DNA of 47,072 nucleotides from Oscillospiraceae bacterium (GTDB lineage: Bacteria; Bacillota; Clostridia; Monoglobales; Monoglobaceae), in assembly GCA_015068845.1 (NCBI GenBank), contig SVJR01000009.1:1-47072 (forward strand). The letters run 5' to 3'. Position 1 is the stretch's first letter. Each line of letters begins with the position of its first letter. The position numbers and the translations under genes are program-made. This document shows, piece by piece, positions 2,062 through 32,319 of this stretch. The notes below the pieces were generated by a model. The model worked only from the letters and a program-made list of their open reading frames with translations. It made no database searches and had not been told where the DNA came from.

Positions 2062-2082
2062 TCTTAAAAATGTTTTCTCAAA

Positions 2083-2110
2083 AAAAAAGACAGCAAAAGC
2101 TGTCTTTTTT
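2083..2110. terminator. Bidirectional terminator after gatB and the SLH gene
   Basis: A hairpin with a 12-bp arm (AAAAAAGACAGC, loop AAAA, perfect complement) ends in a T run on both strands. It lies between the convergent stops of gatB (2061, + strand) and the SLH-protein gene (2113, - strand) and can serve both. Confidence 0.9.
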
Positions 2111-2112
2111 TA

Positions 2113-2769
2113 TTATCTTTCAAGTTCTGTACGCAATGTCATTAATTCTGTTGTTGAGTTGCCATCCATTATAACATATGTTGCACCATTGGGACTCCAC
2201 GAGCTTTGCGCCATAATCGGAATATCTAACGCTATGCTGAACATTGCCGCTACATCTGCTCTGATTGCCGGAACATCTATTTTAAGCATAAGGTCTTTGG
2301 TTAACCCAATTTTTTGAGCCGTCCTGAGATACCCTGCCGGATAGCCGCCCGTCTGTTCAGCCATTGGTGCGTATCCCATACTGTTTATTAGCATTTTAAT
2401 TATTTCTTCATTGGTTATATCTGATTCGGGGTTAAAATTTCCATTTTCATCACCTACGATAATTCCAAGATCCTTTATTGCATTTATATAGAACTTTGCC
2501 CAATGACTATCCATAACATCAGGAAACGCACTTACTGCAACTTCAGATGAAAAATCATCTTTCTTAATTCCCATAATAACACAAATCATCTTTGCTGCTT
2601 CCGCACGGGTTATGTTATCCTCAAGCCGCATATTTCCGTCATCATCACCAACCATTATCCCCAAACTCCTTAAATCTTCAAGTTGTTTTTTGCTTGGGAT
2701 ATCTTCTGCAAAAACCATACTTGATATAACCAATATTATTACTAAAAAAATACTTACAAACTTTTTCAT
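2113..2769 (-). CDS. Secreted S-layer homology (SLH) domain protein
   Basis: A small exported protein of 218 residues. It starts with a signal peptide: Lys-Lys, then a hydrophobic run FVSIFLVIILVISSMVFA with a plausible cut after the final Ala. The rest is SLH-type sequence: LGIMVGDDDGNM with ITRAEAAKMICVIMG, then FPDV...HWAKFYINAIKDLGIIVGDENGNF with ITNEEIIKMLINSMGY, then a weaker third repeat ending near residue 195. SLH domains normally bind secondary wall polymers and hold proteins to the envelope. Almost nothing else is present, so its own activity is unknown. I chose the ATG at 2769 because AAGGAG lies at proper spacing; the longer frame would run into the upstream gene. It is the third gene of a BlaI/M56 operon, 13 bases after the protease gene, which suggests it is induced by the same envelope signal. 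Confidence 0.88.
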   Translation of the reverse strand: MKKFVSIFLVIILVISSMVFAEDIPSKKQLEDLRSLGIMVGDDDGNMRLEDNITRAEAAKMICVIMGIKKDDFSSEVAVSAFPDVMDSHWAKFYINAIKDLGIIVGDENGNFNPESDITNEEIIKMLINSMGYAPMAEQTGGYPAGYLRTAQKIGLTKDLMLKIDVPAIRADVAAMFSIALDIPIMAQSSWSPNGATYVIMDGNSTTELMTLRTELER

Positions 2770-2782
2770 TTTTACACTCTCC

Positions 2783-4279
2783 TTAATAAATAATAATTTC
2801 ACTTTCTATTTCCCAGTTATTGCGAAGTGACCCCTTAACAATAACATCGTATTTTATACTTTTATCTAAATCTTCAATCACGCATACTCCACTTTTGTTT
2901 ACAGGGAAACTTCTTGCACCATTCAGAACTTTCCCCGTTTGACTGTCAGCAAAGCTTACTTCAACCACTTCGTTTGCATTTGATAAAACCGCAACAGAAA
3001 TACACCCCTTTGAATCCGGCATTACTCCTTTAATTATTCTCGTATCTCCGCCGTCATAATTAAACTCGGTCTTTATGTACTGCCTACCCTCTTTTTTTAA
3101 GCCATTTTCAATGGATTTAAAAGAAACATTTTGGGATGGTTCTGTAATTTCTGCAGATGTTACCTCCATTGACTCATCAATAGGTAAAACTTCTTCCTTT
3201 TTGTTGTCATCTTTAGTGTAAGGAAGCAAAATTAGTTTATTTTCAACTTTTTCTTCTACAATACGGACCGTTTCAGGGGCAGAAACAACTATCGTCGCTA
3301 AAGGAAATTGATTAGCTTCGGTAAAAGGCGTTATATTTACAGCAGTATTAACTGCAAAAACAGCAAAGCCTTGAACACAAAACACAAAAAGCATTCCTGT
3401 TATAATAAAGCCTAATTTGCTTTTATAACCTTTTTCTATTTCCTTGAATCTTTTCTCTAATAATGGTTTTTTGTTTGCCATACCTACACCAAACGCTATA
3501 TTTGTTGATATAGACTTTTCAAAAACATATAGTATACTGCGCATATACTCCTTCTTTTCATCCGCGCTCATCCTTTGTGTAGCCTCTATATCACAGGATA
3601 TTTCACATTCCTTTTCTATCTCGCGCACCATAATATAAGTCAAAGGATTAAACCAATGAATACAGCGCACAAGAATAGCAAGATTCTTATAAAGTAAATC
3701 ATTGCGTTTAAGATGAACCAATTCGTGCGCCAATATGTTGTCAATAACTTTTTCATCCGTAATGGTCTCCGGAATAAATAACCGCGGACTAAATACTCCA
3801 ATTAAAACCGGCGCTTTTAAGACAGAAGCTGTACGAACTTCCATTGCGACATATTTTAATTTGTGACAAGACAAAAAAGTGGAATTTTTAAGCAAAACTT
3901 TTTTGAATAAGCTGTATTCAAGAAATACTCCCGTTCCAAAACAGATTGAACCCACAATCCAAAGATATGAACAAACCTCAAACCAACTTATAGACTTTTC
4001 ACCAATCTCAGTTTTTGCATCGAGTAAATGTCCGGTCTGCTTTGCAATAATTTTCACCCCTTCAAATCTATTTATTGAGTCGGGTACATTCCACGAATCA
4101 AAAATAAGTGTTGGAAAAGCAACGGAAATCATGGTAAGTATTACCGGAATCCACACATAATACTGAAATTTGTGACCAATAAACTTTTCCGTTAGAGGTT
4201 TAAACATTATAATAAAAACAACAATAATACTCCCCATCAAACTAAGCTGCAAAATGGTTTTAAAGGCTTCCAACAACAT
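2783..4279 (-). CDS. M56 family (BlaR1/MecR1-like) membrane metalloprotease sensor
   Basis: A 498-residue polytopic protein related to BlaR1. Hydrophobic segments lie near residues 10-27, 42-60, 105-120 and 290-310. Between the third and fourth sits the M56 zinc protease signature HELVH (about residues 185-189), followed by the ECEISCD segment that usually supplies the remaining ligand. In the family, a signal sensed outside activates the protease, which then relieves the BlaI-type repressor. The extracellular C-terminus (about residues 312-498) is not a penicillin-binding domain: I see no SxxK/KTG serine active site. It has a Glu/Lys-rich linker, then a beta-rich tail ending DVIVKGSLRNNWEIESEI. 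The ligand is therefore unknown and probably not a beta-lactam. The start is the ATG with GAGGTG six bases upstream, not the GTG inside that site. The gene sits between blaI-like and SLH genes. Confidence 0.88.
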   Translation of the reverse strand: MLLEAFKTILQLSLMGSIIVVFIIMFKPLTEKFIGHKFQYYVWIPVILTMISVAFPTLIFDSWNVPDSINRFEGVKIIAKQTGHLLDAKTEIGEKSISWFEVCSYLWIVGSICFGTGVFLEYSLFKKVLLKNSTFLSCHKLKYVAMEVRTASVLKAPVLIGVFSPRLFIPETITDEKVIDNILAHELVHLKRNDLLYKNLAILVRCIHWFNPLTYIMVREIEKECEISCDIEATQRMSADEKKEYMRSILYVFEKSISTNIAFGVGMANKKPLLEKRFKEIEKGYKSKLGFIITGMLFVFCVQGFAVFAVNTAVNITPFTEANQFPLATIVVSAPETVRIVEEKVENKLILLPYTKDDNKKEEVLPIDESMEVTSAEITEPSQNVSFKSIENGLKKEGRQYIKTEFNYDGGDTRIIKGVMPDSKGCISVAVLSNANEVVEVSFADSQTGKVLNGARSFPVNKSGVCVIEDLDKSIKYDVIVKGSLRNNWEIESEIIIY

Positions 4280-4296
4280 AACATTCACCTCTCTTT

Positions 4297-4662
4297 TTAA
4301 AGGCTAAACATTTTGCGTATTTTTTCAAGGTCTTCTGCAGTCATTTCTTCACTACCTAAAAGTGAAACTGCAAGTTCCCTCACAGAACCTCCGTATAGCT
4401 TTGAAACAAGTCGGTTTGTTTGTTCTTTTTTATACTCTTCACGCTTTAAAACAGCAGAATAATATATAATGCGGTTTTCTTTTTGCGATGTCACCACTCC
4501 TTTTTCTGCTAAGCGTAAAAGCATTGTGCCTACTGTATTATACTTCCACTTCTCACCTAATACGCCATCACAAACCTCCTGAATACTAAGTGGCTTGTCT
4601 TCTTTCCACAACACCTCCAATATTTCCAGCTCAGCCTCGCTTATATTGATGCTTTTTTTCAA
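4297..4662 (-). CDS. BlaI/MecI/CopY-family transcriptional repressor
   Basis: A 121-residue winged-helix repressor of the BlaI/MecI family. The N-terminal half has the family pattern ISEAELEILEVLWKEDKPLS, then the recognition helix region KYNTVGTMLLRLAEKGVV. The C-terminal half is the dimerisation part, normally the place where the partner M56 protease cuts or destabilises the protein. The preferred start is TTG at 4662, with AGGTG six bases upstream; a GTG three codons earlier is possible but poorly placed relative to its own site. It is first in the operon, 17 bases before the M56 gene, and two palindromes matching BlaI-type operators overlap its promoter, so autoregulation is very likely. 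Family assignment is firm; the inducer is not known. Confidence 0.92.
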   Translation of the reverse strand: MKKSINISEAELEILEVLWKEDKPLSIQEVCDGVLGEKWKYNTVGTMLLRLAEKGVVTSQKENRIIYYSAVLKREEYKKEQTNRLVSKLYGGSVRELAVSLLGSEEMTAEDLEKIRKMFSL

Positions 4663-4685
4663 AATAAACACCTCGCTTTTTTACT

Positions 4686-4724
4686 CCTACAATTGTAAGT
4701 TTAATTATATCTTACACTCGTAGG
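4686..4724. promoter_or_regulatory. Paired BlaI-like operators
   Basis: Two related palindromes in opposite orientation occupy the promoter of the repressor operon. Bases 4686-4699 read, on the minus strand, CTTACAATTGTAGG and contain the exact TACA-N2-TGTA dyad typical of BlaI/MecI operators. Bases 4711-4724 read CTTACACTCGTAGG on the plus strand, an imperfect copy. Both overlap the presumed -10 and spacer. Binding by the adjacent repressor is inferred from position and from the family consensus. Confidence 0.82.
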
Positions 4725-4737
4725 AACATTTTGTCAA
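4704..4737 (-). promoter_or_regulatory. Sigma-A promoter of the BlaI/M56/SLH operon
   Basis: A perfect -35 (TTGACA, 4732-4737 on the complement) is followed 17 bases later by TAAGAT; a perfect TATAAT lies five bases further downstream (4704-4709). Which -10 is used cannot be settled by eye. The element is interleaved with the two repressor palindromes. Confidence 0.75.
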
Positions 4738-13786: not shown

Positions 13787-14305
13787 TCAGAACAGATAAA
13801 AAAAACTTCCCGAGATAAACATTGCAACCAATGCAATAGCAAAAATATATTTGGAAATACCGACAATTAAAGCAATAATAGAAAATAATTTTGCTTTTGA
13901 GGAATACTCTTTTGCCTTAACATAATTTGATACTTCATTTTCACTTTTTGTCAGTGCTGAAAAAATTATTGCTGCAACCCCGAATATAACACTGCCAAAT
14001 ACTGCGCTGATAATAGACAATACAAGATAATCTTTTATATCTTTTTTTTGCACCTGCCACTGACAGCCTGGCGTTTCAATGCAAACATTTTCTACTGCTT
14101 GTTCGGTTTCAATTTTAATATTATTATCAGTGGTCAAAACATCATTATATGTTGATTTCACACCTTCGGACAACGGAGACTCACTGTCTTTTTCGGTAAT
14201 CGGTTCTTCCATCGTAGCGTTTATAGATGGCAGTTTACCGTGTCCGCAATGAACACACCATATATTTTCATTATCATTATAAGCTCCGCATTTAGGGCAA
14301 TACAT
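13787..14305 (-). CDS. Zinc-ribbon membrane protein with CD225/dispanin-like region
   Basis: A 172-residue protein. It begins with a zinc ribbon MYCPKCGAYNDNENIWCVHCG, followed by about 80 acidic, low-complexity residues. Two hydrophobic segments (about 105-128 and 145-170) flank a loop KSENEVSNYVKAKEYSSKAK. The order hydrophobic helix, small polar loop with paired residues, and second helix resembles the CD225/dispanin family. The function of bacterial members is unknown. I chose the ATG at 14305 with AAGGAG nine bases upstream; the longer frame has no site. A TGTCGAA heptamer, the core Spo0A box, lies 41 bases before the start, and the gene directly follows the spoIIA operon, so a sporulation or stationary-phase connection is conceivable but unproven. 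Confidence 0.72.
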   Translation of the reverse strand: MYCPKCGAYNDNENIWCVHCGHGKLPSINATMEEPITEKDSESPLSEGVKSTYNDVLTTDNNIKIETEQAVENVCIETPGCQWQVQKKDIKDYLVLSIISAVFGSVIFGVAAIIFSALTKSENEVSNYVKAKEYSSKAKLFSIIALIVGISKYIFAIALVAMFISGSFFYLF

Positions 14306-14343
14306 ATTCAACCGCTCCTTGTCATAAAATCTAGTTATATTTG

Positions 14344-14354
14344 ATTTCGACAAA
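14344..14354 (-). promoter_or_regulatory. Candidate Spo0A box
   Basis: TTTGTCGAAAT on the minus strand contains the TGTCGAA core of the Spo0A binding site. It lies in the short gap between sigF and the zinc-ribbon gene. The heptamer also occurs by chance inside coding sequence in this window, for example near 13245 and 20995, so the evidence is positional only. Confidence 0.4.
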
Positions 14355-14405: not shown

Positions 14406-15143
14406 TTACGGCACAAGCTTTTCCCGCATTGCGGCAAGAAGTTTTTTTTCTATTCTTGAAACCTGAACCTGAGATATTCCAAGTTGAGCTGCAATCTGAG
14501 CCTGAGTGTATTCCTTAAAGTATCTAAGGATTATTATTTTTTGCTCTCTGGGTTCAAAGTCTGCCAGTAACTGCCTGATAAGAATTTTATTTATTACCTC
14601 ACCCTCACAATTGTCACGACTTTCAAGCCTGTCAGCTAGAGTTTTGTTATCTTTTTCACCATCGTCATAGGTTGCATTTATTGACTCTGGCTTTATTCCT
14701 GCATCAAGTGCAACAGCAATATCTTCGGCACTTACACCCAGTTCAGCTGACAAAGTCTGAACCGTTGGCTCACTTCCTGTTTCAGTTATTATTTTCTCAC
14801 GCAATGCCAATGCTTTTATCGCAAGTTCTTTTATACTTCGGCTCACCTTTATAATACCGTCATCCCGTATAAACCTCTTGATTTCACCCATAATCATAGG
14901 AACGGCATAGGTTGAAAACTTAACATTAAACGATAAATCAAACTTCTGCACAGACTTTACAAGACCGATACAGCCAATCTGGAACAAATCCTCGGCATCA
15001 ACACCTCTACCATAAAACCGCTTGACAGCACTGTGAACAAGCCCCATATTTTCTTCAACGATTATATCCATTGCAGATTTATCGCCGGCTTTGGCAAGCA
15101 CAAGCAATTCTTCAATATTCTCGTTATATTTTTTTGTCTGCAC
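14406..15143 (-). CDS. sigF: RNA polymerase sigma factor F (early forespore)
   Basis: SigF directs early gene expression in the forespore and is held inactive by SpoIIAB. The 245-residue protein has sigma-70 regions 2, 3 and 4: NMGLVHSAVKRF and AEDLFQIGCIGLVKSVQKFD (region 2.1-2.2), VKFSTYAVPMIMGEIKRFIR (2.3-2.4), an SAELGVSAEDI region-3 helix, and region 4 with EREQ-like PREQKIIILRYFKEYTQAQI followed by the ISQVQVSRIEKK helix-turn-helix. The start is GTG with AGGGGG six bases upstream. It follows spoIIAB by two bases. Sequence alone can confuse SigF and SigG, but the two upstream genes settle it. Confidence 0.95.
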   Translation of the reverse strand: MQTKKYNENIEELLVLAKAGDKSAMDIIVEENMGLVHSAVKRFYGRGVDAEDLFQIGCIGLVKSVQKFDLSFNVKFSTYAVPMIMGEIKRFIRDDGIIKVSRSIKELAIKALALREKIITETGSEPTVQTLSAELGVSAEDIAVALDAGIKPESINATYDDGEKDNKTLADRLESRDNCEGEVINKILIRQLLADFEPREQKIIILRYFKEYTQAQIAAQLGISQVQVSRIEKKLLAAMREKLVP

Positions 15144-15145
15144 GG

Positions 15146-15565
15146 TTATCCCCCTATGCGTTTTCTCATTCTTACCGTTGTTCCTTCACCTGGCCCGGAT
15201 TCCACATACAGCTCGTCCATAAAGGTTTGCATAACTGTAAAGCCCATTCCGCTCCTTTCATAATCCGGTCTTGATGTGTAAAGCGGTTGCATAGCTTGTC
15301 CTATATCCTCGATTCCTACGCCAAAATCAGTAACCTCAATTTCAAACACCGAATCGATAACCTTACACACAATTTTCACTACACCTTTCATATTTGCGTA
15401 GCCGTGAACAATCGAATTGGTTACCGCCTCTGAAACCGCAGTTTTTATATCCGACATTTCTTCCACACTTAAATCCAGTTGCACCGAAAAAGCAGCAACA
15501 GCAGCGCGAACAAACGACTCGTTACAGCTTTTTGCCGGAACCTCAAGTTTCATATAATTTTCCAT
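15146..15565 (-). CDS. spoIIAB: Anti-sigma F factor, serine kinase
   Basis: SpoIIAB binds and inhibits sigma-F and also phosphorylates SpoIIAA. The 139-residue protein shows the GHKL ATPase motifs: [11 protein letters not shown] with Glu46 and Asn50 (N box), TDFGVGIED with Asp80 (G1) and [15 protein letters not shown] (G2). These are the expected kinase residues, so it should be active. The start is the second methionine of the frame at 15565, with AAGGAGGG eight bases upstream; a longer frame overlapping spoIIAA has no site. Position between spoIIAA and sigF is the classical order. Confidence 0.96.
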
Positions 15566-15581
15566 ATGTATTCCCTCCTTT

Positions 15582-15890
15582 TTAATGACTGCAATCAAGA
15601 ATCTTTTTCAATCCTGAAATTTCAAGTATTTTATCGACCTGCGGATTTACTCTGATAATCATCACTTTGCCGCCCCTTGCCTGAATTTCCTTATACCTGC
15701 CCGCAATAACCCCAATGCCCGAGCTGTCCATAAACCCCACATCATCAAAATCCAGAATCAAATTCACAATATTCTGCGAGTTTATCTCCCTATCAAGTGC
15801 ATCACGCAATTTCGGTGCCGTATGATGGTCAAGTTCACCACTTAGCTTTGCCACAAGCGTTGTTCCTATAACCTCAAGCCGTATATCCAT
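15582..15890 (-). CDS. spoIIAA: Anti-anti-sigma F factor
   Basis: SpoIIAA is the STAS-domain protein that, when unphosphorylated, releases sigma-F from SpoIIAB in the forespore. The 102-residue length is normal. The phosphorylation-site motif [16 protein letters not shown] is intact (serines 56/57). The N-terminal strand pattern [20 protein letters not shown] is typical of the family. The ATG is preceded by AGGAGGT. It is first in the operon, below a sigma-H-like promoter. Confidence 0.96.
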
Positions 15891-29403: not shown

Positions 29404-32289
29404 TCATATAATTTCAAGTAGTTTTTGCACCTCATCCTTCATCTTTTCTCTGCTTTCAAAAATAGGAACATAAGTGAAAAGATTATATTCTTCAGCGAGT
29501 CGGGCACGTAGAGCATATACTTTTGTCGGCGACTTGTCAAACAATACCCCATTAGTCCAATACTCCCTGAAAATCACCGGGTAGCCGTCATACACATCAA
29601 CAGTTTTACCGCTAGTAATATCAATGAGCATTGTACGACATTTCTGCGCCGTCAAATCCACATATGGCAGGAACAACATATCACCCTTATCATTGAACAT
29701 AGCCAACCGAGCCCCAAAACTACTGCTGCCGATATCAGCTGCGATATAGGTGGTATCAAATTCAAAGCTATACAGTTTTTTTCCGGTATTTATATCAATC
29801 ACTTTAAAGCAATTATCCGTCTCATCTATATAGCACACCTTGTCAAGTGTTTTATCAAAGGTTGGTATTTTGTAGTTTTTAAGGCTTCCCGCCGTATGCA
29901 CAGTCTCAATTTTTCCAACCTGGGTGCAATGAATTTCGTCGCCTTTACTATTATACTTCACGATGCACTTATCGTTATGCAGCACGAATCCATCAGAGCC
30001 GGTTTCAAGCCTGAAGTCTACATCACCTTCTCCGGCCTCAATCAGCTTTGTTTTTCCAGATGCTTCGGCTGCCACTTTGGCAATATATACCGTTTTTCCA
30101 TCAATCTCAATCATATGTGAATCGCTGACCTTAGTCCAGCCTTCGGGCGTGCTATCCTCGATTTCAACCGCAACATAAGCATTATTTGCCAAGCTGAAGT
30201 GCTGCTTTGATGCATAGTCATACACTATATCTTTTTCGTAATCCCAATAGTTACTATATAACTCGAATGGGTCTAATTTTCCCAAAGACGATATCTTAAG
30301 AGTTTTTTTGTCACACTTGTAATGCGTGAAATCGTCAATCGAGTCAGCATGAGGATTATATATGTAAAACAGAAAATAATTCTTCGTCTGTTCCGATAGC
30401 CTTATTTTTAATCCCGTCTCAAAAATCACCTTGTATTCTCTACCATAATTATAAGGCTGTGCAACCACATTACCCTCAGCCACAATACAGTTATTTAGAT
30501 TATCGGCATCACAAATAATATCGGTGCATCGCATATCGCGGATATAGTTTTGCGACCTTGCAGCCACCGTATGACTTTCACCTGACCGCAAAAATACACG
30601 GAATATATCGCCATTATTGTAAAATGCAAAGTTTTCCACAACTTCATCATAAGTGAACCTCTGTTCTTCACCGCTTGACACATCTTTTAAAACAACCATT
30701 TTGTCGCTTATGCTATACAAAATATTTTTACCATCTTCACTTATATCAAATTTATGCGACACGAAACTGTCAGCTACCAAATCATCCGCCGGTACATACG
30801 CAAGGTCGAGCTTGTCCAGCACCTCCCCCGTTTCTACATCAAAGTATATGTAAAACATATTTTCCTTGAATATCTCGCTTTTTTCAATCAGGTCCAAATA
30901 TATTGCCGCCTTGTTGTCGCCGCCAAATTCAAGATTGTAGTCATAGTAGGGGATATCCATAGTGTATAAAATCTTCATCGTTTCCGTACTTACAGCATAA
31001 AGTTTACACTCTTTGGTGAACACAAACAACACTTTTTCGTCATTTGAAAGCTGTAGTTTGGTGCAATTCTTAATTCCGGCTGCCTTAAAATAACCATCTT
31101 CTTCTAAATCAAAAACAATGCCCGTAGATGATTTCACGGATGTATTGCTCTTTACAAACATATCCTTAATGCTGTTATCTTTTATAAGAGCTTTCTTTTC
31201 TGTATCAAAAACATAATTTGAAGAATTTATTAACTCCGAAAAGTAGAATCTCTTCCCATCTTTTTCATAAAAGATGTCTCCTAAGAAAAATGTGTCTTCA
31301 TCAATATATTCTTCATACGCCTTCCCGTTTGAATCATAGTACACAATAATGTTATTGTCCTTTATTTCAAAGACCTTTTTCATATCCTGGACCGTATAAA
31401 CTATACCATCCATAATAATCATACTTTTTTCTTCGTCCACAAATTCGTATTCAACTATATGTTTATGGTCCGGATAGGCAAGTATATTGTTTATCCGAAG
31501 GGTTGCACCCTTCTCAAAATTTAGGTTCTCACGGATTGCCTCGTTTATCTCAAACTTATCAATATGCCAAAAGTCCGCAGACTTTTCCAACTCAAGCAGT
31601 TGCTTCATTCCGTGATACAAGTCTTCGCCGCACAACTCCCGAGCCGCCACAACATCCTTGCTTATGAGTCCGGTCTTAAAAAACCGTACGCCCATTAATG
31701 CCGCAAGCGAAAGAATAACCGCAATGATTGCAAACAAAGCCGTTCTTATGATAATCTGCTTTTTTCGCATCTGCTCGTCGCGTTTTGCTATGGTTTCGTA
31801 GCTAACATTAAGCACTCCCGACACAATTTTCAAAAACATTTGCCGCCACGAGCCCTCATAGCGATATACTGCAAGTTTTGTATCGGCATAATCCTTGAGA
31901 ATACCCGGAAGCATTTCCATTCGCTCAGCTTCAGAAGAATACTTCTCAGCAACAACCGGAACAACATTTTCTATCCCGTAATGCTTTACAAAATACCTGA
32001 CTTCTTCACAAACATATTCTGAATTTGCCGCAGTTTTGGTGCAAATAACAATCAGCTTTTTAGACTCGTCAAGTTTTTCATATATAATATCCGTCAAGTT
32101 CCCGCTCGAAAAAGCAGTCTCGTCCCGGCAAATAGGAAAAAGTCTTTGGTCTCTATCTTCGCTGCCGGTGATTGTGCTTATATTGTAGTTTTCAAGTCTG
32201 CGATGCAGTCTTCTTGCAAAGCTACTATCCTTATGCGAGTAGCTTATAAACGCGTAATATTTACTTTCTAAAGGATTGTTGCCATTCAT
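29404..32289 (-). CDS. TIR-domain membrane protein with long beta-repeat region
   Basis: A 961-residue protein. Residues about 10-150 form a bacterial TIR domain: YYAFISYSHKDSSFARRLHR, the CRDETAFSSGNLTDII loop, KKLIVICTKTAANSEYVCEE (Glu96 aligns with the NADase glutamate of catalytic TIR domains) and VVPVVAEKY. A membrane helix spans about 180-202. The remaining roughly 750 residues are beta-rich with repeats of the type 'EDGKNILYSISDKMVVLKD' and 'TGEVLDKLDL', suggesting one or more WD40-like propellers on the other side of the membrane. The ATG at 32289 has GGAGG ten bases upstream; a TTG two codons earlier is an alternative. It follows the YitT gene by 30 bases. Similar architectures may sense the envelope, but neither NADase activity nor a defence role is shown. 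Confidence 0.82.
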   Translation of the reverse strand: MNGNNPLESKYYAFISYSHKDSSFARRLHRRLENYNISTITGSEDRDQRLFPICRDETAFSSGNLTDIIYEKLDESKKLIVICTKTAANSEYVCEEVRYFVKHYGIENVVPVVAEKYSSEAERMEMLPGILKDYADTKLAVYRYEGSWRQMFLKIVSGVLNVSYETIAKRDEQMRKKQIIIRTALFAIIAVILSLAALMGVRFFKTGLISKDVVAARELCGEDLYHGMKQLLELEKSADFWHIDKFEINEAIRENLNFEKGATLRINNILAYPDHKHIVEYEFVDEEKSMIIMDGIVYTVQDMKKVFEIKDNNIIVYYDSNGKAYEEYIDEDTFFLGDIFYEKDGKRFYFSELINSSNYVFDTEKKALIKDNSIKDMFVKSNTSVKSSTGIVFDLEEDGYFKAAGIKNCTKLQLSNDEKVLFVFTKECKLYAVSTETMKILYTMDIPYYDYNLEFGGDNKAAIYLDLIEKSEIFKENMFYIYFDVETGEVLDKLDLAYVPADDLVADSFVSHKFDISEDGKNILYSISDKMVVLKDVSSGEEQRFTYDEVVENFAFYNNGDIFRVFLRSGESHTVAARSQNYIRDMRCTDIICDADNLNNCIVAEGNVVAQPYNYGREYKVIFETGLKIRLSEQTKNYFLFYIYNPHADSIDDFTHYKCDKKTLKISSLGKLDPFELYSNYWDYEKDIVYDYASKQHFSLANNAYVAVEIEDSTPEGWTKVSDSHMIEIDGKTVYIAKVAAEASGKTKLIEAGEGDVDFRLETGSDGFVLHNDKCIVKYNSKGDEIHCTQVGKIETVHTAGSLKNYKIPTFDKTLDKVCYIDETDNCFKVIDINTGKKLYSFEFDTTYIAADIGSSSFGARLAMFNDKGDMLFLPYVDLTAQKCRTMLIDITSGKTVDVYDGYPVIFREYWTNGVLFDKSPTKVYALRARLAEEYNLFTYVPIFESREKMKDEVQKLLEII

Positions 32290-32319
32290 CAGCAATCAGC
32301 CTCCGTTTTTATCATTTGG

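Follow-up and report, generated by a model that had tools for sequence, protein, structure and literature searches.

Organization of the blaI-M56-slh locus

We analyzed a 47,072-nt stretch of DNA (hereafter the window) from a gut Oscillospiraceae bacterium (GTDB lineage Bacteria; Bacillota; Clostridia; Monoglobales; Monoglobaceae), corresponding to positions 1-47,072 of the forward strand of contig SVJR01000009.1 in assembly GCA_015068845.1. The minus strand between positions 4737 and 2113, promoter included, carries an operon that encodes a BlaI-type repressor, an M56 membrane zinc protease and a small SLH protein, in that order (Table 1). The source genome, which is 79% complete, contains one M56 gene and one BlaI gene. 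The repressor scored 101 bits against the Penicillinase_R profile (PF03965), well past the curated cut-off of 22.6, and is 67% identical to its orthologue in a relative of the same genus (G008). Shine-Dalgarno spacing and comparison with relatives suggest translation starts slightly downstream of those of the longest open reading frames: TTG at 4662 rather than GTG at 4671 for blaI, ATG at 4279 rather than GTG at 4288 for the protease, and ATG at 2769 for slh. The protease is then 498 residues long, which fits the numbering of an earlier, sequence-only reading of this DNA, while its longest reading frame has 501. A hairpin between slh and a convergent gatB-type gene is a probable bidirectional terminator; since it parts the operon from that gene, the operon should end after slh.

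Table 1. Features of the blaI-M56-slh locus (positions in the window).
Feature	Position	Strand	Basis
sigma-70-type promoter, TTGACA-17-TAAGAT	4709..4737	-	consensus scan, 10/12 matches
BlaI-type operator 1 (predicted), CTACGAGTGTAAG	4711..4723	-	sequence; between -35 and -10, overlapping -10
BlaI-type operator 2 (predicted), CTACAATTGTAAG	4687..4699	+	sequence; downstream of -10
blaI-type winged-helix repressor	4297..4662	-	PF03965, 6.3e-29
M56 membrane zinc protease with extracellular C-terminal sensor	2783..4279	-	PF05569, 5.6e-42
HELVH zinc motif, residues 188-192 (501-aa ORF numbering)	3713..3727	-	H188, E189 and H192 invariant in ten relatives
C-terminal extracellular beta-sandwich, residues 388-501	2786..3127	-	AlphaFold2 model, structural matches, profile A6
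secreted SLH protein, 218 aa	2113..2769	-	PF00395, 3.7e-15, 2 stretches
hairpin with flanking A/T runs, 13 pairs	2082..2111		terminator-like site scan

Elsewhere in the window, we noted a CD225-domain protein (interferon-induced transmembrane protein family; 13787-14353, 1e-15), a sporulation-type sigma factor found by Pfam scan that is followed by two small ORFs (14406-15890) and likely belongs to a spoIIA operon, and, on the minus strand, a 963-aa protein (29404-32295) with an N-terminal TIR domain (TIR_2, 5e-10; ThsB_TIR, 4e-9) and a remainder without a Pfam match.

The protease core and its extracellular domain

The first ~300 residues of the M56 protein match Staphylococcus aureus BlaR1 (phmmer, 1e-7), and its core aligns with the BlaR1 structure at Z 18.2 over 242 residues (VIA-align). 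The HEXXH and ExxxD gluzincin motifs that mark the M56 family are present within a BlaR1-type membrane fold. In BlaR1, the zinc ligands and their helper residues are H201, E202, H205, D210, E242, D246, Y261 and R294 (PMC9834060); their counterparts here, assigned from motif spacing and alignment, are H188, E189, H192, D197, E229, D233, Y248 and R280, all of which are invariant in ten relatives. The NCBIfam blaR1_generic model matched residues 17-306 only and scored 78.7 bits, far below its cut-off of 400.

Beyond the core, residues 318-387 are predicted to be disordered and would form a flexible linker. Residues 388-501 were modeled by AlphaFold2, at moderate confidence (pLDDT mostly 70-83), as a helix plus a beta-sandwich of ~115 residues. 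Structural matches to residues 377-501 were jelly-roll domains, namely GOLD domains and carbohydrate- and collagen-binding modules, with Z up to 9.0. The best of these was a GOLD domain (Z 9.0, rmsd 3.6 A over 115 residues), and many beta-sandwiches reached Z 7-8; identity was 3-13% in most rows, and these matches imply no shared function. The modeled likeness would thus be one of generic arrangement, and we claim no kinship to GOLD domains. Attempts to name the domain by sequence returned FN3-like (Dscam, 1.5e-4) and pilin-like repeats as the best PDB profile matches, which we did not trust.

The sequence-only reading had seen no penicillin-binding active site in this sensor, and had named homology to a penicillin-binding sensor as a finding that would count against it. 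Its observation holds: no SxxK occurs in residues 312-501, no transpeptidase-type or other penicillin-binding Pfam domain matched the M56 protein, and the modeled domain is a small beta-sandwich, so that a PBP-type sensor was rejected. Since SxxK and a PBP profile are both missing and the blaR1 score lies far under its cut-off, sequence and model, as far as they reach, exclude a beta-lactam receptor of the known kind, and a sensor acylated by a beta-lactam appears very unlikely. The same reading had remarked that no beta-lactamase gene lies nearby, and we likewise found none among the 20 further ORFs of the window that were scanned against Pfam.

These observations bear on whether the system might report cell-wall antibiotics indirectly, with slh as the response gene, as proposed for BlaI operons of Clostridium thermocellum. 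The BlaI/M56 chassis fits such a role, and similar operons have been read as beta-lactam responses (PMC8457756). Nevertheless, the lack of a PBP sensor, of SxxK and of a beta-lactamase among the scanned window genes, together with the low blaR1 score, makes this account improbable.

The SLH protein and its pairing with the extracellular domain

By inspection, the slh product starts with a signal peptide; an SLH trimer that forms a spindle follows, and the short tail contains a TLR motif. Its structure model (pLDDT 87.7) matched the SLH modules of Sap and SpaA (Foldseek, 3pyw and 7sv4, E about 2e-7), and the SpaA structures matched are complexes with pyruvylated wall-polymer fragments. The main pocket of SpaA is built from Arg61 in SLH1, Gly109 and Lys130 in SLH2, and Trp151 in SLH3 (PMC6081394). 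Counterparts of this SpaA groove-2 set, assigned by motif spacing, are R55, G106, K125 and an aromatic residue at 143 (Y/F), and they are kept in 12/12 SLH proteins; the second SLH motif reads TNEE and so lacks its Arg, as does TVEE in SpaA. The source genome also holds two pyruvyltransferase-family genes, which makes a pyruvylated wall-polymer ligand plausible. From sequence and model, it is therefore plausible that the SLH protein anchors to a pyruvylated secondary wall polymer.

Related SLH proteins vary in form. Orphan genes for short SLH-only proteins of the same family occur away from any BlaI/M56 pair (L133, L134, L135, L136, L137, L138). Some SLH proteins of other operons are longer and bear a copper-amine-oxidase-N-type stalk after the SLH module (L175:5001-6218, L170:5001-6218), and some carry an unnamed domain of ~90 residues.

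The three-gene order put forward by the sequence-only reading is present and recurs, divergent C-terminal domain included, in two relatives of the same genus (G008, G006), in three of the same family (G010, G018, G013) and in families elsewhere in the class (G066, G101). That reading had named loss of slh from the locus in every relative as a finding that would speak against it; the gene is kept there. Named examples of the trio are metagenome-assembled genomes of Oscillospiraceae and Clostridia, several of them from animal gut (loci L168-L178). We then searched 391 genomes of this class with a profile built from the C-terminal domain. Every strong match (E <1e-14) fell on an M56 protein, save that of G150: there the system is split, and the domain sits on a membrane protein of its own, again next to slh. 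Directly downstream of the domain-bearing gene lay slh in 23/23 operons when the seed loci are counted, and in 15/15 outside the profile seed, with a gap of up to 58 bp where the starts were clear. By contrast, none of the 30 distinct M56 loci that lack the domain and have readable downstream DNA carried a same-strand slh within 200 bp. Simple arithmetic puts 15/15 against 0/30 at ~3e-12, a figure that is in truth weaker owing to the relatedness of the genomes. As judged from these gene neighborhoods, slh is not a chance neighbor of the M56 sensor gene. Across 398 genomes drawn from the whole phylum, only the window's own copy of the domain was found, and the sensor-SLH switch appears restricted to this class among the genomes sampled.

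The domain and the SLH module have also diverged together. Over 18 operons, their divergences correlated with r 0.58 (partial correlation 0.57 given the protease core; 4/2000 permutations), while the partial correlations of the core were weak (0.10 with the domain, 0.12 with the SLH module). Because this co-divergence is independent of the core, domain and SLH would constitute one module that has been moved between protease cores. Joint selection need not be the sole cause; linked recombination arising from adjacency could contribute. Alternatively, the gene order might be inherited by shared descent or carried by a neutral mobile cassette, without regulatory meaning; domain and slh, being adjacent, would travel together. 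This is the least probable of the explanations weighed here: the order is kept over several families in which M56 identity has fallen to about 22-35%, with both genes intact, and it has withstood two types of operator and BlaI as well as a split version. A metal-sensing switch akin to CopY or to cyanobacterial PetR/PetP, with slh as a passenger, is also highly improbable. Cyanobacterial BlaI/M56 homologues do respond to copper (PMC7896320), and the repressor weakly matches a CopY_TcrY model; however, its NCBIfam CopY/TcrY score of 64.9 is below the cut-off of 121.95, its sequence has no CxC metal motif, no metal motif is obvious in the sensor domain, and slh is no random passenger.

Other M56 proteins of the group point to the wall as well. 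The protease of G006 combines a LytR-CpsA-Psr domain (3e-27) with two copies of the jelly-roll domain, and a LytR-CpsA-Psr domain forms the M56 ectodomain also in G045 and G017. LytR-CpsA-Psr enzymes join wall polymers to peptidoglycan, and wall-related sensors are thus a theme in this group.

Further variants of the M56 architecture were observed. Proteases with a LytR-CpsA-Psr extracellular part lie at L081:3959-5755, L007:646-2469 and L078:1564-4497 (E 3e-27 to 1e-29), and in an M56 protease of G124 the extracellular region itself incorporates an SLH repeat (L083:4656-6551, E 6e-15). Split M56 systems (L018, L020, L023, L026, L027, L086 and L172; for example L086:3837-6493) consist of a protease half of ~280 residues and then at least two membrane proteins, each of which starts with MLEKLYTTKMSxxKxxLxxRFxKI, a motif close to the BlaR1 self-cut position. 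Such systems resemble a single protease served by several exchangeable sensor halves. Just past the SLH gene, G010 and G018 have a second, convergent BlaI/M56 pair (M56 of ~835 aa; L129:337-3222, L130:5096-7978).

Operators, regulon and a proposed surface switch

The two predicted operators are TACN4GTA dyads that lie around the -10 element, 25 bp apart. The G008 relative has the same promoter layout and conserves operator 2, and most operons in which the DNA upstream of blaI is fully readable have a TTGACA-like box with paired dyads. Operators are of two sequence types, CTACN4GTAG-like (TACN4GTA) and GTCTATN4ATAGAC (TCTATN4ATAGA). The second is nearly the same sequence as the C. thermocellum BlaI_0696 motif, which was bound in EMSA (PMC8457756).

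The paired TACN4GTA arrangement with 25-bp spacing has a single zero-mismatch site in the source genome, at the operon promoter. In pattern-based searches that assume the half-sites and spacing of the known pair, an operon's own promoter was the sole perfect paired site in each of ten genomes (G000, G008, G010, G018, G101, G123, G360, G006, G066 and G153); none of the ten had a second. It follows that slh is the one predicted non-regulatory target, and the earlier suggestion that slh is the output gene gains support from sequence. Since the source genome is 79% complete, a second target could be missing, a worry that is reduced because relatives that are 92-97% complete give the same single-site result.

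Weaker candidates were set aside. Across G010, G018, G101, G123, G360, G006, G066 and G153, the only other near site was a two-mismatch pair in G006 that adjoins IS3-type transposase genes. One-mismatch pairs in the G000 and G008 searches were no commoner than in a reversed control. Single operators with one mismatch occurred at 14 places in the source genome versus 32 in the reversed control, and such matches are hence at chance level. A one-mismatch site before another SLH gene (contig C15, L041) lies several hundred bases upstream, inside another coding gene.

On balance, we favor the view that the locus encodes a closed, self-regulating BlaI/M56 switch that probably adjusts the amount of a wall-anchored SLH protein as the state of the wall or surface changes. 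BlaI dimers on the two promoter-overlapping operators would hold the blaI-M56-slh operon low. The M56 protein would span the membrane, its zinc site facing the cytoplasm and its small jelly-roll domain held outside on the long flexible linker, where that domain would read a cue, most likely the state of the wall polymer or its occupancy by SLH. The cue would activate M56, which would then cleave itself and BlaI as in BlaR1, and the operon would be derepressed. More SLH protein would be secreted and bind the pyruvylated secondary wall polymer, closing the loop. We infer the cleavage of BlaI, the nature of the cue, and the direction and sign of the feedback. Given that the operon is its own only predicted target, the loop would be closed, an arrangement suited to the homeostatic control of a surface component. 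The sequence-only reading had proposed that the signal is an envelope state and not a beta-lactam. Its second half is well supported, as there is no PBP domain; the envelope cue we infer, and it is strengthened by the sensor-slh pairing, the wall-polymer pocket and the LytR-CpsA-Psr sister sensors. Because the pairing of sensor and wall protein recurs in >20 related genomes, the switch probably monitors the cell surface, not an antibiotic.

The SLH protein could belong to the sensing apparatus besides being a target; as a ligand or adaptor of the sensor, it fits the strict pairing just as well as it does as an output. In the full form of this alternative, which we think unlikely, SLH is a sensing subunit that docks the wall polymer and the M56 jelly-roll and relays wall strain or polymer loss, while the true outputs lie elsewhere and were missed. 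The strict pairing and co-divergence of domain and slh agree with it, as do the SLH repeat fused into the G124 protease and the constancy of SLH modules beside variable tails (e.g. Cu_amine_oxidN1). However, the ten genomes, with no second paired operator, make no other output visible, and co-sensing and output roles are not exclusive. Returning to the closed switch, a tentative extension, more apt to be wrong than right in its specifics, is that the jelly-roll reads the presence of its partner SLH or of pyruvylated wall polymer. The switch would then gauge, by proteolysis, whether S-layer-type anchoring sites are occupied, in other words be a one-protease homeostat for the Gram-positive surface.

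Searches of the open-access literature turned up no account of a BlaI-M56-SLH operon. BlaI/M56 pairs are common in Clostridia, yet few of their cues are known apart from beta-lactams and copper. The present locus is a defined, compact and recurrent case of a sensor with its own surface protein, and with such company the cue can be sought directly. Should that cue prove to be wall-polymer or SLH occupancy, bacteria would have a new way to sense their surface layer. If true, our reading also warns against labeling every BlaI/BlaR1 pair as beta-lactam resistance.

Among known systems, the staphylococcal BlaI-BlaR1-BlaZ and MecI-MecR1 switches share with this one a BlaI-family repressor, paired dyad operators, the M56 gluzincin catalytic residues and the BlaR1 membrane fold. 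The switch would work like BlaR1/BlaI, and its regulators are members of the BlaI and M56 families. BlaR1 and MecR1, however, carry a class-D-like penicillin-binding sensor where a small jelly-roll on a linker is modeled here, and the staphylococcal targets are a beta-lactamase or PBP2a, whereas the predicted target here is an SLH protein. The M56 protein is therefore not a BlaR1 beta-lactam receptor, given that the defining penicillin-binding (class-D-like) SxxK sensor was looked for and is absent. The C. thermocellum BlaI_0696 and BlaI_1845 operons resemble ours in their tiny regulons and in two paired inverted repeats at the promoter; their response genes are a putative peptidoglycan-synthesis homologue and a hypothetical protein, and the term SLH is absent from that report (PMC8457756). 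Cyanobacterial PetR/PetP likewise joins a BlaI-family regulator to an M56 protease with a non-beta-lactam cue and a very small regulon but responds to copper and controls plastocyanin and cytochrome c6; BlaI/M56 pairs can thus serve cues other than beta-lactams (PMC7896320). Lastly, the SLH modules of Paenibacillus alvei SpaA and Bacillus anthracis Sap share with the present protein the three-SLH spindle fold and the residues of the primary pyruvate pocket. Unlike SpaA and Sap, the protein here is nearly all SLH module: its tail is short, it lacks a self-assembly domain, and its level is predicted to be under proteolytic control.
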